From Acidobacteriota bacterium (GTDB lineage Bacteria > Acidobacteriota > Thermoanaerobaculia > Gp7-AA8), in contig JAJPHC010000050.1 of assembly GCA_021325515.1 (NCBI GenBank), positions 1-64,000 of the forward strand: 64,000 bases of DNA, read 5' to 3'. A model generated the notes under the pieces. That model had not been told where the DNA came from, did no database searches, and saw nothing but the letters and a program-made list of their open reading frames with translations. This document shows positions 21,000-26,633 of this stretch, one piece after another. How positions within the stretch are numbered: the first letter of the stretch is position 1; the number at the start of each line of letters is the position of its first letter. Both the position numbers and the translations under genes were made by a program.

Positions 21000-21362
21000 T
21001 TAGTGCTTCTTCGTGGTGTGCTTGGTCTCGGTCTTCGTGGTCGTCGTTGTTGTCTTGCCGGTGGTTCCGGTCGTGTCGGTGGTGCCGGTCATCCCGGTCA
21101 TACCAGTCATTCCCGTCATGCCGGTTGCGCCGGTCGAGGCCATCGTGCCCGAAGTGTCGGTGCTGCTCGTCGTCGTCATCGTGCTCGAGGTGTCGGTCGA
21201 CATCGTGCCGCTGGTGCCGGTCATCGAGGTGTCCGTGGACGAAGAGGACGAGGCGGACGTATCCGTCACAGTGGTCTCGCTCGTGGTGGTTTCTTCCTTC
21301 TTGCACGAGAAGGCAAACAGCAGGGCAACAATGGCCAGAAGGGCCAGAAACGATTTTTTCAT
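21000..21362 (-). CDS. threonine/serine-rich lipoprotein
   Basis: Function unknown; 120 residues. The ATG at 21362 is preferred because GGAG lies 5 nt upstream; an adjacent ATG at 21365 is too close to it. The signal sequence ends at a lipobox-like FAFSC, predicting a lipidated Cys about residue 20, followed by KKEE. The mature part is almost only Thr, Ser, Gly, Met and Asp, with [14 protein letters not shown] repeated, and a basic end. It is a tandem paralogue of the gene at 21623. Confidence 0.75.
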   Translation of the reverse strand: MKKSFLALLAIVALLFAFSCKKEETTTSETTVTDTSASSSSSTDTSMTGTSGTMSTDTSSTMTTTSSTDTSGTMASTGATGMTGMTGMTGMTGTTDTTGTTGKTTTTTTKTETKHTTKKH

Positions 21363-21570
21363 CATGTCTCCTCTTTGATGAGTTTGTGTGTGTTCTGTTG
21401 TTTCAATTCGCGTGTCCGTTCGCCTCTGGCTGCCTGCCCTCACCTCCTTCCCCATTGGATGTCGACCCAATCGGGGAGAAAACTTCTCGATGTTTTGGGT
21501 GTGGGCGCGTTCACGCGGAGGCGGAGAAGCACGACCCCGACAGAAGGGAGAGCACAACGGGTGCCAAGAC

Positions 21571-21608
21571 AAAAAAAAACGCCCCGCCGAAGCGGGGCGT
21601 TTTTTCAT
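21571..21608. terminator. bidirectional intrinsic terminator between the two lipoproteins
   Basis: A 9-bp GC-rich stem (ACGCCCCGC with GCGGGGCGT; 21579-21587 and 21592-21600) is flanked by nine A on the left and six T on the right, so it can act in both directions. Its natural job is to end the transcript of the lipoprotein gene at 21623, which shows that the two paralogues are transcribed separately. Confidence 0.9.
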
Positions 21609-21622
21609 TTCAGGGTTGCAGC

Positions 21623-21949
21623 TTACGGCTTCTTGGTTTCGGTCTTCGTGGTGCTCGTGCTCACGGTCGTACCCGTGGCAGCGGCGGCGCCCGTGGCACC
21701 CGTCGCGCCCGTCGTACCCGTCATGCCGGTCATACCGGTGGCGCCCGTGGCGGCCTCGGTGCCCGTCATCGTGCCGGTCGTGCCAGTGGCGGCGGTGTCA
21801 GCCACCGTGGCGGTCGTCGCGGTGGTCGCGGTCGTTGCCGACGTGTCGGTCGCGGCCGTGTCGCTCGTGGCCTCTTCCTTCTTGCAGCTGACAGCGAACA
21901 TCGAAACGATCACGAGGGCGATGAGGGTCAGAATAAGGGACTTCTTCAT
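21623..21949 (-). CDS. threonine/alanine-rich lipoprotein, paralogue
   Basis: Function unknown; 108 residues. Hydrophobic signal sequence ([20 protein letters not shown]) ends at a lipobox-like FAVSC with Cys about residue 22, again followed by KKEE. The rest is built from Thr, Ala, Gly and Met with [18 protein letters not shown]-type repeats, and the end is KTETKKP, close to KTETKHTTKKH of the paralogue. An AAGGAG site lies before the ATG. Such composition suggests an extended, glycosylatable linker-like surface protein; this is inference. Confidence 0.75.
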
Positions 21950-22163
21950 TTCTTGAATTCTCCTTCAATGTTTTCAGATCACTTGATCTGATTCTGGTAT
22001 TCGAATTGGATAAACGGGACCAGTACGAGTCCTGTCCGGGTGCCGTGATCACCTCTCTTTGCAGATGCGTTTCGAAACCTGGCGGTACTCGATTGGATTC
22101 GTTGACTGGTACACAACTACAGTGCCCGGACGAGTCCGGCTCACCGGGCGGTATATAGTAAGC

Positions 22164-22955: not shown

Positions 22956-22986
22956 AAAAAGGCCGCGCAAGTTCACGCGCGGCCTT
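22954..22986 (-). terminator. intrinsic terminator after the small proline-rich gene
   Basis: An 8-bp stem (GGCCGCGC with GCGCGGCC; 22961-22968 and 22977-22984) has seven A on its plus-strand left flank, so it works on the minus strand, ending transcripts from 23018. It also follows the hydrolase stop directly. Confidence 0.8.
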
Positions 22987-23017
22987 CGCTCGAAGTCAGA
23001 TGATGTTGTTTCGAAGC

Positions 23018-23188
23018 TCAGGGGAGCGGGAGTGGCGGCACATACGACGGTTTTCTGACCGGCACGTGCACGATCTCGATCACCTGCAGTTCAGGCACGA
23101 ACTCATCCAGGGGCGGACGCGGTGTCGTTTCGGGTTTGCGTTCCGTTCCACCCTCTTCGATCCACTCTTCTCCGTCATAGACCCACAT
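23018..23188 (-). CDS. small acidic, proline-rich protein of unknown function
   Basis: A 56-residue reading frame beginning MWVYDGEEWIEEGG and ending in a proline-rich tail (PSYVPPLPLP). It has AAAGGA 7 nt before the ATG at 23188 and an intrinsic terminator 32 nt after its stop on the same strand, which together support a real gene. No family is recognised. The acidic N-terminus and Pro-rich end suggest a small soluble binding protein, but no function can be given. Confidence 0.55.
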   Translation of the reverse strand: MWVYDGEEWIEEGGTERKPETTPRPPLDEFVPELQVIEIVHVPVRKPSYVPPLPLP

Positions 23189-23328
23189 GCGAGCGTCCTT
23201 TCCACTGCTCACCGGGCTTGCCCGGCTTGTGGGTGATACGTATCAAGCGCTTTGCCAGTTGCCCGGCTCTGGCGTCAAAACGCGAAACCGCTGCGCATGA
23301 AGGGGTTATCAGACGAACCCAGCATTGG

Positions 23329-23913
23329 TCACTCGGCGAGGTGTCCATTTCTTGATGCAAGGTGTCCGAGATGACGAGCAAGTTTTCGATAGGCATCGCC
23401 GCGATGAGAGACCGCATCCTTCTCCTCGTCGCTCATTTCGGCAAACGTCCTCGAGGATGAGGCAGGCCTGAACCACGCGTCCCATCCGAAGTTCTGATTG
23501 CCGCGCGGCTCGACGAGCACTTCGCCGCGGCATTCGCCCGTGAATACATGCCCCTGCTCGCCGTCCCAGTAGGCGACACAGCACTGCGCGCGGGCCGCGC
23601 GGTTGTTCAGCGCGTATGCGATTGCTGCGAGACCTTTCCCTCCGGCTGCTTCGAGCAGCCACTTCACGAACGGGCCGGGAAAGTTTCCGAGCTCATCGAA
23701 ACCGAGGGAGACATCTTCGACGATGAGCCGGGCGTGGCCTTTGGTGCGGGCAACCTCGAGTTTGTAGCGCGTGACTTCCTCGACGGTTGCCGCCTGAATC
23801 TCAGGGAGCGAGATGGCGACGCGCAGCAGCGGAATTCCGAGGATGCGCTCAGCCTCGATCCCCTTGTTGGGATTCGACGAGACGAGAATCAGCTTCTCAG
23901 CGGAGCTGCTCAC
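23329..23913 (-). CDS. non-canonical purine NTP pyrophosphatase (RdgB/HAM1 family)
   Basis: House-cleaning enzyme that hydrolyses dITP, ITP and XTP to monophosphates. It has 194 residues. The family's motifs are visible: SSNPNKGIEAERIL at the N-terminus, EDVSLGFDELGNFPGPFVKW for metal and base binding, FGWDAWFRP and the C-terminal SHRGDAYRKL. The sequence of the GPFVKWLL segment is nearer to eukaryotic-type ITPases than to E. coli RdgB. It lies immediately downstream of the anti-sigma gene. Confidence 0.9.
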   Translation of the reverse strand: MSSSAEKLILVSSNPNKGIEAERILGIPLLRVAISLPEIQAATVEEVTRYKLEVARTKGHARLIVEDVSLGFDELGNFPGPFVKWLLEAAGGKGLAAIAYALNNRAARAQCCVAYWDGEQGHVFTGECRGEVLVEPRGNQNFGWDAWFRPASSSRTFAEMSDEEKDAVSHRGDAYRKLARHLGHLASRNGHLAE

Positions 23914-23925
23914 GAGCGGCGCATT

Positions 23926-24153
23926 CTACGACAGCGCGCGCAGCGTCCGGGAGAGTCGCGTCTTCAGATGCTCCGGAGCGGGTTGCGGCGCCAGACGCCT
24001 GAGCACGAACCTGCGAAGGCGAAGCTGAATCTGTGTCTTGGTGTCGCAGTCGGCGCAGATGCTGAGGTGTGTCTTGAAATCGAGCTGCCGTTTCTCGCCG
24101 AGCGAACCGTCGAAGAAGAGGTAAACCGTGCGTCGAACCTCGCTACAGAGCAT
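23926..24153 (-). CDS. ZAS-domain anti-sigma factor
   Basis: A 75-residue protein that probably binds and holds the ECF sigma factor encoded just upstream. Cys3, His29, Cys33 and Cys36 fit the ZAS pattern C-x25-H-x3-C-x2-C exactly (HLSICADC), the zinc site found in RsrA and ChrR. The rest is basic. The ATG at 24153 follows AGGAAGGA; longer reading upstream runs through the terminator region and is not protein-like. In redox-sensing relatives the same cysteines form disulfides that release the sigma factor; whether that applies here is inference. Confidence 0.8.
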   Translation of the reverse strand: MLCSEVRRTVYLFFDGSLGEKRQLDFKTHLSICADCDTKTQIQLRLRRFVLRRLAPQPAPEHLKTRLSRTLRALS

Positions 24154-24270
24154 CCCTGCGTTCCTTCCTCGCGATGAGGTGACGACTCTCATTCGTTGTG
24201 AACGACCGGTAACGAACGTGCATTTCCGAATTGCAATCGAGCCGCCAGAAAATTTTGGATCGCAGGTAGC

Positions 24271-24301
24271 AAAAAAAAGAGGCCGCCATTCCGGCGGCCT
24301 C
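24271..24301 (-). terminator. intrinsic terminator between sigma and anti-sigma genes
   Basis: A 9-bp stem (GAGGCCGCC with GGCGGCCTC; 24279-24287 and 24293-24301) followed on the minus strand by a run of eight T (24278-24271). It lies 25 nt after the sigma factor stop and before the anti-sigma start at 24153. Confidence 0.88.
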
Positions 24302-24325
24302 ATTGATTTCATGATCTCGCTTCGT

Positions 24326-25105
24326 TCATTCGACGAAGTGCTGCTCGGTTTCCTCTTCTTCGTCTTCGATCTCGAAGTCCTCGAAGTCGTCCTCGTCGTC
24401 GGCGAAGAGCGTTTCCTCTTCGTTCTCCTCCGGCTCGGTGGCCTCGGTCTCCTCCGCTTCGTCGTCCTTCTTCTTCCGCGGCTTCGCCTCGTCCTTGCGC
24501 GAGCGCATCTTCGCCGGCTCTTCACCGGTGCGGATGTAGCCATACTTGCGCGCGTACTCGAGGAGCGTGCGCTCGAGCATCTTGCGGCCGCGATAGAGAC
24601 GCGACATCACGGTTCCCACCGGGCAGTCGAGAATCTCGGCGATCTCCTTATACGAGAAGCCTTCGATGTCCGCGAGCAGCACGACCATCTTGTAGTCGTG
24701 CGGCAGCGAGTCGAGCGCCCGCTTCACGTCCTCATCCATCATGTCCTGGAAGATCTCGCTCTCCGGATCCTTGATCAGATCCGGCGCGTTCTTCTGGATG
24801 ACGCGCTCGTACGACTCTTCGATCTCCGAGAAGTCGATTTTGTGAGGGGTGAGCTTCTTCTTCCGGTAGTTGTTGATGAACGTGTTCTTCATGATCTTGA
24901 AGAGCCACGCCTTGAAGTTCGTTCCCTCTTCGAACTTGTCGTAGTACTTGTACGCCTTGAGATACGTCTCCTGAACGAGGTCCTCCGCGTCTTCGGAGTT
25001 CCGCGTCATGCGATAGGCGGTGTTGTAGAGCGAGTCGACGTAAGGCATTGCTGCCTTCTCGAAGTCCCACCCCTGTTCGTGCTCGTACGCTTCGGCACTC
25101 TTCAT
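24326..25105 (-). CDS. ECF RNA polymerase sigma factor with acidic tail
   Basis: Group IV sigma factor of the RpoE class, 259 residues. Region 2 spans about 20-90 ([21 protein letters not shown], then [20 protein letters not shown]) and region 4 about 130-185 ([20 protein letters not shown], with the [12 protein letters not shown] recognition helix). The last 60 residues are extra: a basic patch, then a very Glu/Asp-rich stretch. It is followed by a terminator and a ZAS anti-sigma gene. The start ATG has GGGAGAG upstream. The 358-nt region upstream probably holds an autoregulated promoter. Confidence 0.95.
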
Positions 25106-25463
25106 GGTCTCTCCCGTTGATCTACAAAAACTTCATACTCCGTGCCGCAATGCTGATTAGATGCGCCACGGGGCCGGAACGTTACCGGCCGTCTCTGCCG
25201 CGACCGGGACACAAACTCCCAAGTCATTGCTGCAGAATTGTTTAACCCAACCAACCCCTGCCGCTTCTCAGCCTGCGGCGCCGCGGACAAACTGTCGCCC
25301 GATGCGTCACCAGCACCGGACACGTCCGTCCTCGATTGGGGTTGATCTCACATGAAAGCTACGGTCAGATGGAGGGAACTGCGGAAACTTTTGTGAACAA
25401 ACCGTAAACAGCCCGAATTCCCGCGGAGAAGATAGCACCAATCTGGTGCGAAATGCAAGCGTT
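25106..25463 (-). promoter_or_regulatory. 358-nt gene-free control region of the sigma factor
   Basis: No credible gene. On the minus strand GGTAACGTT (25186-25178), 16 nt, then TCTAA (25161-25157) resembles an ECF-type promoter (AAC-containing -35 and TCTAA -10), which would make the sigma factor autoregulated. Farther upstream is a perfect 6-3-6 palindrome GCACCA-ATC-TGGTGC at 25435-25449, a possible operator or the end of the DnaJ-domain transcript. Confidence 0.35.
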
Positions 25464-26201
25464 TTATTCCCGATACATCGATAAGAGGCTCTCGTACGCC
25501 TTCGTAATCTCGATGAATCGCGCTGCCGCCCCTGCCTGCGCCTCGGGCGGCTGGTCATAATACCGGTCCGGATGATGTTGCGCCACCAGACGCCGGTACG
25601 CAGCGATGATCACCTGCCGCGATGCCGGCATCGTCTCGATTCCCAGAACACGCAGCAATTCCTCTGCACCGCGTTCATCGCGGCCGAAGAGCGTAAGCCT
25701 CCCGCCGGCGCGATCGGCTTCGCGCGGACGCCCTTCCTTCGCATGATCGACGTACTCGAATCCGTATTGCTCTCGCAGCTTCGCCAGCGCATCGGTCTGA
25801 AACCCGAGCCCGAAACTCAGATCGAGCAGCGCAGCGTACTGGCGCAGCGGCACCGGCGTGCCGCGCATCGCAATCAGCCTGACCGCAGTCTCCAGCAGAT
25901 GCTCTCGCTCGCTGCGCGGCGCCGCTCGTGCGAACGCCTCGCTCCAATTCGCGACGTCGATGCCGCTCGTCACCTGAGCGACGAGACCCGCATGTCGCCG
26001 GATCTCGCGTAGTGCAGCGTCGGAAGACATCCCTCCCGCAACGAGGATCTGAAAGAGAATCGACGCAGCGACGCCATTCCTGTCCTGCGCCGGCGCTTCG
26101 CTCTCTTCTTTCCGGCGTGTTGCGATCCCGATCGCCACCATCACGGCGATCGCGAAACCGCAGCCGGCGGCGATCATGAAGATGACGGCGATGAGCTCCA
26201 C
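25464..26201 (-). CDS. membrane-anchored DnaJ-domain protein (DjlA-like)
   Basis: Probable DnaK co-chaperone, 245 residues. An N-terminal transmembrane helix (about 3-27) is followed by a helical TerB-like middle region (about 45-160), and the J domain is at the C-terminus with YRRLVAQHHPDRYYD, containing the HPD tripeptide that stimulates DnaK. This order (membrane, TerB-like, J) is that of DjlA, although the middle domain is only weakly recognisable. The start is GTG at 26201, six nt from the start codon of the divergent thioesterase gene. Confidence 0.8.
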   Translation of the reverse strand: MELIAVIFMIAAGCGFAIAVMVAIGIATRRKEESEAPAQDRNGVAASILFQILVAGGMSSDAALREIRRHAGLVAQVTSGIDVANWSEAFARAAPRSEREHLLETAVRLIAMRGTPVPLRQYAALLDLSFGLGFQTDALAKLREQYGFEYVDHAKEGRPREADRAGGRLTLFGRDERGAEELLRVLGIETMPASRQVIIAAYRRLVAQHHPDRYYDQPPEAQAGAAARFIEITKAYESLLSMYRE

Positions 26202-26207
26202 GTCGTA

Positions 26208-26633
26208 ATGTTACGCAACGTGCAAACCCAATCGGATCTGATCCAGGTGATCGAGCGGCGATTCGGCGACCATCCCGTCCGCCGCTTCCTCGACTTCCAG
26301 TTCGTCGAGCTGGTCATCGACCGCTGCGTGATGACACTCGCATTCAAACCTGAATTCGACAACTCGACGGGCGCAGTTCATGGCGGGATTCTCGCCATGC
26401 TCGCCGACACCGCCGTCGCCTGCGCGCTTTCGACGAACTTCGGCGGCGAGATGAATTTCGCCACGTCGAACCTCAACATCCACTTTCTGCGAAGAGCCAG
26501 CACCGCCGTCACGGCAACGGCGACGATCATCAAGAAAGGGACGAAGGTCTGCGTCGGTTCGGTCGAGCTGCACGATGCCGACGGACGCCAGGTCGCCACC
26601 GCGATCTGCGACTTCGTCCTCCTCCACGCCTGA
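26208..26633 (+). CDS. PaaI-family hotdog thioesterase
   Basis: Hotdog-fold acyl-CoA thioesterase of 141 residues. The core motif FDNSTGAVHGGILAMLADTA fits the PaaI/YbgC-like pattern (HGG followed by an acidic residue on the long helix). The substrate is unknown; relatives hydrolyse phenylacetyl-CoA or other aryl and medium-chain thioesters. The stop overlaps the start of the next gene (TGATG). The ATG at 26208 sits in a palindrome CGTAA-TG-TTACG and has no Shine-Dalgarno, so it may be translated from a leaderless mRNA. Confidence 0.87.
   Translation: MLRNVQTQSDLIQVIERRFGDHPVRRFLDFQFVELVIDRCVMTLAFKPEFDNSTGAVHGGILAMLADTAVACALSTNFGGEMNFATSNLNIHFLRRASTAVTATATIIKKGTKVCVGSVELHDADGRQVATAICDFVLLHA

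Follow-up and report, generated by a model that had tools for sequence, protein, structure and literature searches.

In the window, by which we mean the whole 64-kb stretch of DNA analyzed here, we found that an ECF sigma factor gene of the SigR/SigH-like type and the adjacent gene for a ZAS anti-sigma factor are separated by a strong intrinsic terminator, with a candidate SigH-type promoter lying between this terminator and the anti-sigma gene. The usual view is that a fixed ratio of sigma to anti-sigma requires the two genes to be cotranscribed. A second promoter appears to be the best account of a terminator between the two genes and, as an overall explanation drawn from sequence comparison, we consider it likely that the pair is split by the terminator and that the anti-sigma gene is induced by its own sigma factor. 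Two architectures stand side by side in related genomes and the sigma gene carries a codon-level footprint of the promoter, which together open to experiment the question of how a stress sigma factor is held off by an inhibitor that is self-induced and uncoupled from it. The literature matches listed (open-licence papers) include no study of such a pair, or of a terminator between its genes, in Acidobacteriota.

The sigma/anti-sigma locus and its terminator

The locus comprises the following features, given in the direction of transcription:

25464-26201, minus strand: gene for a J-domain protein, upstream neighbor of the sigma gene
24326-25105, minus strand: SigR/SigH-like ECF sigma gene, 259 aa, with Pfam Sigma70_r2 and Sigma70_r4_2
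24464-24517, minus strand: basic linker of the sigma tail (residues 197-214), from sequence composition
24329-24463, minus strand: acidic tail of sigma, predicted to be disordered (residues 215-259), from composition and AlphaFold2
24301-24271, minus strand: intrinsic terminator with a 10-pair stem and eight T (hairpin 24301-24279), from folding and a window scan
24201-24227, minus strand: candidate SigH-type promoter of the anti-sigma gene, GGAAA-N19-GTT (alternatively GAAAT-N18-GTT), off consensus in the window
23926-24153, minus strand: RsrA-like ZAS anti-sigma gene, 75 aa, zf-HC2, predicted to bind zinc
23329-23913, minus strand: rdgB/Ham1 NTP pyrophosphatase gene, starting 12 nt past the anti-sigma gene
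22958-22987, minus strand: second strong terminator, from the strict window scan

The sigma factor contains ECF regions 2 and 4 and has SigH as its closest relative among solved structures, as is expected of a SigR/SigH factor. Its best NCBIfam model is TIGR02947 (actinobacterial SigH/SigR; E 1.7e-62), with 210.6 bits against a cut-off of 251.55 that is not reached, and its best PDB match, Mycobacterium tuberculosis SigH (E 8.3e-50), stops at query residue 195, before the acidic tail. The only NCBIfam model matching the anti-sigma protein is TIGR03988 (RsrA), also under its cut-off (51.0 of 62.5 bits), and RsrA is the top, though insignificant, PDB match (E 0.18). Its zinc ligands C3, H29, C33, and C36 have the same spacing as Cys11-His37-Cys41-Cys44, the RsrA ligands as described in PMC4960319, and HxxxCxxC is kept in the anti-sigma protein of all 18 genomes that carry the pair. 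The zf-HC2 match and this zinc motif confirm the initial annotation of the neighbor as a ZAS anti-sigma gene. Given the model, structure, and zinc-ligand matches together with scores under the cut-offs, we liken the pair to SigH-RshA and do not file it as an equivalog.

Nineteen genomes from the window's family and its sister family, the window's own included, were searched, and the sigma gene was found in 18 of them (17 + 1); the remaining genome, G006, holds only a weak paralog. Sigma loci from other families of the class were compared as well. These genomes and loci are related and some loci are near copies of one another, and the counts given here are not independent. Close relatives of the sigma factor with a named source belong to Acidobacteriota / Thermoanaerobaculia. 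The sigma and ZAS genes are neighbors in 18/18 genomes, and rdgB adjoins the anti-sigma gene in just as many, probably sharing one transcript with it that perhaps ends at the terminator at 22958-22987. A 64-residue Pro/Glu-rich ORF (23018-23212, minus strand), which follows rdgB and precedes the terminator at 22987, is possibly part of the same transcript. Farther along (21000-21956, minus strand) are two low-complexity, lipoprotein-like ORFs rich in Thr, Ser, and Ala with MTG repeats. We rejected a 205-aa ORF (23926-24543) as a distinct gene and read it as a mere in-frame upstream extension of the anti-sigma gene. Rfam gave no match at E 0.1 across 23000-26300.

The strong terminator that had been noted between the two genes holds up well. 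The hairpin has a minimum free energy of -20.6 kcal/mol (z -3.95), which none of 200 shuffles equaled, and it is one of only four sites in the 64-kb window passing a strict rule (at least 9 pairs, at least 6 G-C, and 6 of 8 T), compared with none in 20 simulated first-order Markov windows. A lax rule returns 4 sites in 3 kb versus 3.0 expected. Across the 18 genomes, the gap between the genes takes two forms. It is long (129-301 nt) in ten, the window's included, all of which have a strong hairpin of -19 to -32 kcal/mol beginning 11-27 nt past the sigma stop codon, followed directly in seven of the ten by a stretch with 5 or more T in 8; T tracts are poorer in L017 and L020, and in L026 the predicted stem absorbs the T run. 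In the other eight genomes the gap is short (21-54 nt), the best hairpin reaches -2 to -12 kcal/mol, and a comparable strong hairpin is present in none. The gap of L016 was measured to an upstream GTG, and a later ATG would give about 189 nt. A separate, stricter terminator scan flagged 5/18 genomes. In a poorly resolved tree of sigma DNA, which covers 16 of these genomes and omits two with truncated sequences, the two gap forms require five parsimony changes, at least two of them on well-supported branches.

A candidate SigH-type promoter and its wider distribution

Between the end of the sigma gene and the start of the anti-sigma gene, GGAAT-N18-GTT occurs in 16/18 genomes and its N19 form in one more, with other spacings in at most 3. 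At loci of other families where a ZAS gene adjoins the sigma gene, GGAAT-N18-GTT is present in 13 of 15 (other spacings at most 2), and one further locus of the 15 has it when a longer stretch is scanned. The second promoter that the initial annotation had offered as one explanation for the terminator is thus well supported by conservation. The window copy, read as 24227-24201, sits 47 nt ahead of the anti-sigma start codon, beyond the hairpin. When the window gap is shuffled, 96 of 5000 shuffles contain GGAAN-N17-19-GTT, and 23 of 5000 contain it 39-61 nt ahead of the start codon. Taken by itself, the window copy could be a chance match; the case for the promoter rests on the relatives. It is likewise in the relatives that GGAAT/C-N18-19-GTT, the form expected of SigR/SigH before anti-sigma and stress genes, is found, the window copy being off consensus.

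The Corynebacterium glutamicum SigH consensus is described as GGAAT-N18-19-GTT with a -35 of GGAAN accepted, the rshA promoter of that species reads GGAAG-N18-GTT, and GGAAT-N18-GTT is reported ahead of rshA in 63 Corynebacterium species (PMC10012870). For M. tuberculosis SigH, changes at -35 positions 2 and 5 are described as tolerated (PMC4803200), and the off-consensus -35 of the window would fit this tolerance. Taken together, the motif comparisons make it very probable that the sigma factor induces the gene of its own anti-sigma factor, as is known in Corynebacterium.

The position of the motif differs between the two gap forms. In all eight short-gap genomes, the -35 GGAAT lies within the sigma gene, whose final codons GAG GAA TTC supply it. 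In all ten long-gap genomes, the codon preceding TTC is CAG, AAG, CGG, or CAC (CAC in the window), and the motif is located downstream of the hairpin. We tentatively suggest a history, plausible but short of probable, in which the ancestral anti-sigma promoter lay inside the sigma 3' end, with its -35 in the EEF codons of the tail, and was relocated, probably on more than one occasion, to the far side of a terminator that had newly arisen. A partly coupled pair would thereby have become two units, with the inhibitor made only while sigma is active and sigma itself driven from upstream by a promoter of sigma54-like or another type; the tree is poorly resolved on the direction of change.

The same motif extends to stress genes elsewhere. 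Upstream of clpB, GGAAT-N18-GTT is found in 13 of 21 genes (other spacings at most 2), including 12 of 14 from the window's family, and is absent from the other 2 of these, from the sister family, and from 5 of 6 others. One dnaK copy has it in 9/19 upstream regions and with N19 in 3/19 (other spacings at most 2; absent in 7/19), and none of the 11 upstream regions of a second dnaK-type copy has it. The thioredoxin system, with trxB as test gene, is expected in a SigR/SigH regulon; the motif was found in 0/17 trxB upstream regions, so that control of thioredoxin reductase through it is not supported by these sequences. These counts cover 21 of 22 clpB loci (one cut at its start was omitted), all 30 dnaK loci (19 + 11), and 17 of 24 trxB loci; distances were measured from where the profile match begins rather than from the start codon, and contig-end loci (e.g., L232 and L241) were counted as they came, with misplaced upstream windows.

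In the window's own genome the motif also precedes clpX. From the motif before clpB, one dnaK copy, and clpX, we read the sigma factor as probably running a chaperone/protease response. Genome-wide enrichment of the motif was suggested by a reversed-pattern control (12 versus 53 sites), but a spacing control undid it, with 53 N18 sites versus about 88 per spacing for N20-29 (878 over ten spacings, reading-frame effects included). By a crude ORF rule, 28 of the 53 sites are intergenic, and for 18 of these an ORF begins no more than 300 nt away. The sites upstream of rpsL, rplM, ychF, signal peptidase and PrsA-like isomerase genes, and also clpX, may be due to chance. An ORF near a motif site that had been taken for rnpA has no NCBIfam match.

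Upstream region and acidic tail of the sigma gene

Three conserved sequences precede the sigma gene:

25396-25421, minus strand: SigH-type motif GGAAT-N18-GTT, ending about 290 nt ahead of the sigma start codon
25157-25185, minus strand: conserved element GTAAC-N17-CATCTAA, earlier predicted to be a promoter
25132-25147, minus strand: CGGCACG-N4 element, a degenerate sigma54 -24/-12-like sequence with CGGCACG in 18/18 genomes

The SigH-type motif has the N18 spacing in 14/18 genomes and N19 in 3/18, and L024 reads GAAAT-N18-GTT. Its presence in 14/18 makes self-feedback possible, and the sigma factor may act on its own gene through a long leader. The evidence is weaker here than for the anti-sigma promoter, since this upstream stretch is conserved throughout and contains several GTT, with other spacings reaching 7/18, and since the motif rarely precedes the sigma genes of other families (N18 in 1/51, N19 in 2/51).

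The initial annotation had placed an autoregulated promoter at 25157-25186. An element does exist there and is conserved (exact in 13/18 genomes at the sigma locus), yet GTAAC-N16/17-CATCTAA is not SigH-type and has one exact site in its own genome, the locus itself, so that we rejected it as the autoregulated promoter; the SigH-type motif sits instead at 25421-25396. Over 40 genomes, the own one included, 14 have a match to the pattern, with 19 matches in all, 13 of them at the sigma locus by position. A relaxed form gives 4 sites in the own genome, compared with 41 for the reversed pattern. The element could be a promoter of some other sigma factor.

The own genome encodes rpoN and contains no exact site for the canonical sigma54 pattern TGGCACG-N4-TTGCW. 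Compared with the sigma54 consensus, the -12 of the CGGCACG-N4 element reads GA, not GC, which leaves sigma54 control of the window copy as only a possibility. In six other groups, GGCA-N8-GC (GG-N10-GC) lies upstream of the orthologous sigma gene at 17 of 19 loci, eleven of the 19 being from one family; in five further groups GG-N10-GC is found at 0/29. Sigma54-like elements precede the ECF sigma gene at L030, L033, L037, L061, L032, L034, L028, and L029. A sigma54-to-SigH cascade is possible in part of the class, judging from these sequences.

Also upstream, at 25318-25333 (minus strand), a Shine-Dalgarno-like GAGGAC and a GTG/ATG TCC start form a near-palindrome, GGACNNNNGTGTCC, whose GTG/ATG lies 185-222 nt before sigma in 18/18 genomes. 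It could be either a leader peptide or an operator. Against a leader peptide, frames and stops vary among genomes, although the Shine-Dalgarno sequence and GTG/ATG are conserved.

At the other end of the gene, the Glu/Asp-rich C-terminal extension that had been described is confirmed and is conserved across the window's family, with an acidic part of about 45 residues, not 60. Of the 45 residues from 215 to 259, 60% are Asp or Glu and none is Lys or Arg, and AlphaFold2 pLDDT stays below 50 across residues 202-259. The tail is present in 18/18 genomes holding the sigma gene in the window's family and sister family and was not seen in the sigma genes compared from other families. Counted from residue 197, it measures 59-63 aa with a net charge of -15 to -22 in all 18, whereas its mean pairwise identity is 0.62 versus a core median of 0.97 (core from 16 genomes). 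The constant EEF near the tail end of short-gap genomes can be explained by a DNA-level constraint from the -35 element. A search of open-licence papers found none on acidic tails of ECF sigma factors.

Alternative readings, proposed mechanism, and known systems

A terminator between the two genes could also leave the pair still largely cotranscribed, the hairpin being a leaky attenuator that keeps anti-sigma below sigma while an internal promoter adds to it. The model for this is C. glutamicum, for which bicistronic and separate rshA messages are described as coexisting (PMC3489674). The eight genomes with short gaps and the poor or paired T tracts of L017, L020, and L026, three of the ten hairpins, are in keeping with such leakiness; the window hairpin, however, is among the four strong terminators of the window and its eight consecutive T suggest efficient termination, and we regard this reading as somewhat unlikely. 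We give less credit still to the acidic tail as a built-in second inhibitor, one that would occupy basic surfaces of sigma in competition with DNA or core RNA polymerase, so that the ratio to anti-sigma would matter less. Tail length and net charge are held despite low sequence identity, and ECF41 factors are described as having inhibitory C-terminal extensions (PMC8999054). Against this, the tail lacks a confident AlphaFold2 fold, the same promoter precedes the ZAS gene in other families whose sigma factor has no tail, and the -35 element can account for the constant EEF end in short-gap genomes. We think such a role unlikely.

It is very improbable, in our judgment, that the ZAS neighbor is not the cognate inhibitor and that the terminator merely separates two unrelated units. 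The anti-sigma gene does accompany rdgB throughout, and in families f5, f7, and f9 no ZAS gene was found by a motif rule within 1.2 kb downstream of the orthologous sigma gene (e.g., L036, L037, and L083). However, sigma and ZAS genes are adjacent in every genome that has the pair, SigH and RsrA are the NCBIfam models that the two proteins match best, and the ZAS gene has a SigH-type promoter.

Under the preferred reading of a terminator-split pair with a self-induced anti-sigma gene, sigma and anti-sigma would form separate transcription units. Sigma would be made from upstream promoters, its message stopping at 24271, and anti-sigma and rdgB would be made chiefly by RNA polymerase carrying this sigma factor, from 24227-24201. 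Stress, thiol oxidation or heat by analogy, would free sigma, which would turn on chaperone and protease genes (clpB, dnaK, and perhaps clpX) together with its own inhibitor, so that the response shuts down. The terminator would shield the level of the inhibitor from other sigma transcripts.

Among known systems, ECF270 is described in a review as an Acidobacteria group with a soluble ZAS partner (PMC8999054); the pair here shares the phylum and the type of partner, a likeness by description only. M. tuberculosis SigH, from a different host phylum, is the best PDB match of the sigma factor, and its promoters are given as GGAAYR-N17-18-GTT, with dnaK among its targets and a SigH promoter at clpB (PMC4803200). 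Streptomyces coelicolor SigR-RsrA supplies the type of the best-matching sigma and anti-sigma models and an identical zinc ligand spacing; both proteins here, in contrast, fall under the curated cut-offs and trxB lacks the motif. An unstable isoform, SigR', is described for S. coelicolor SigR (PMC4921905). The C. glutamicum SigH-RshA pair shares an ECF sigma factor with a soluble zinc anti-sigma, a SigH-type promoter for the anti-sigma gene, and clpB and dnaK tied to the regulon (PMC3489674, PMC10012870). In that species, a SigH-controlled promoter serves rshA alone in addition to the bicistronic message, and a figure legend mentions a terminator symbol (PMC3489674). It differs in that the pair is also cotranscribed there (PMC3489674) and that SigH targets thioredoxin-system genes (trxB1; PMC10012870), while trxB here is without the motif. 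Thus, a SigH-driven anti-sigma promoter is already known from Corynebacterium, and the novelty here lies in the host group and in the terminator and relocated promoter, which, as we infer, make the locus a split variant of the SigH-RshA arrangement.
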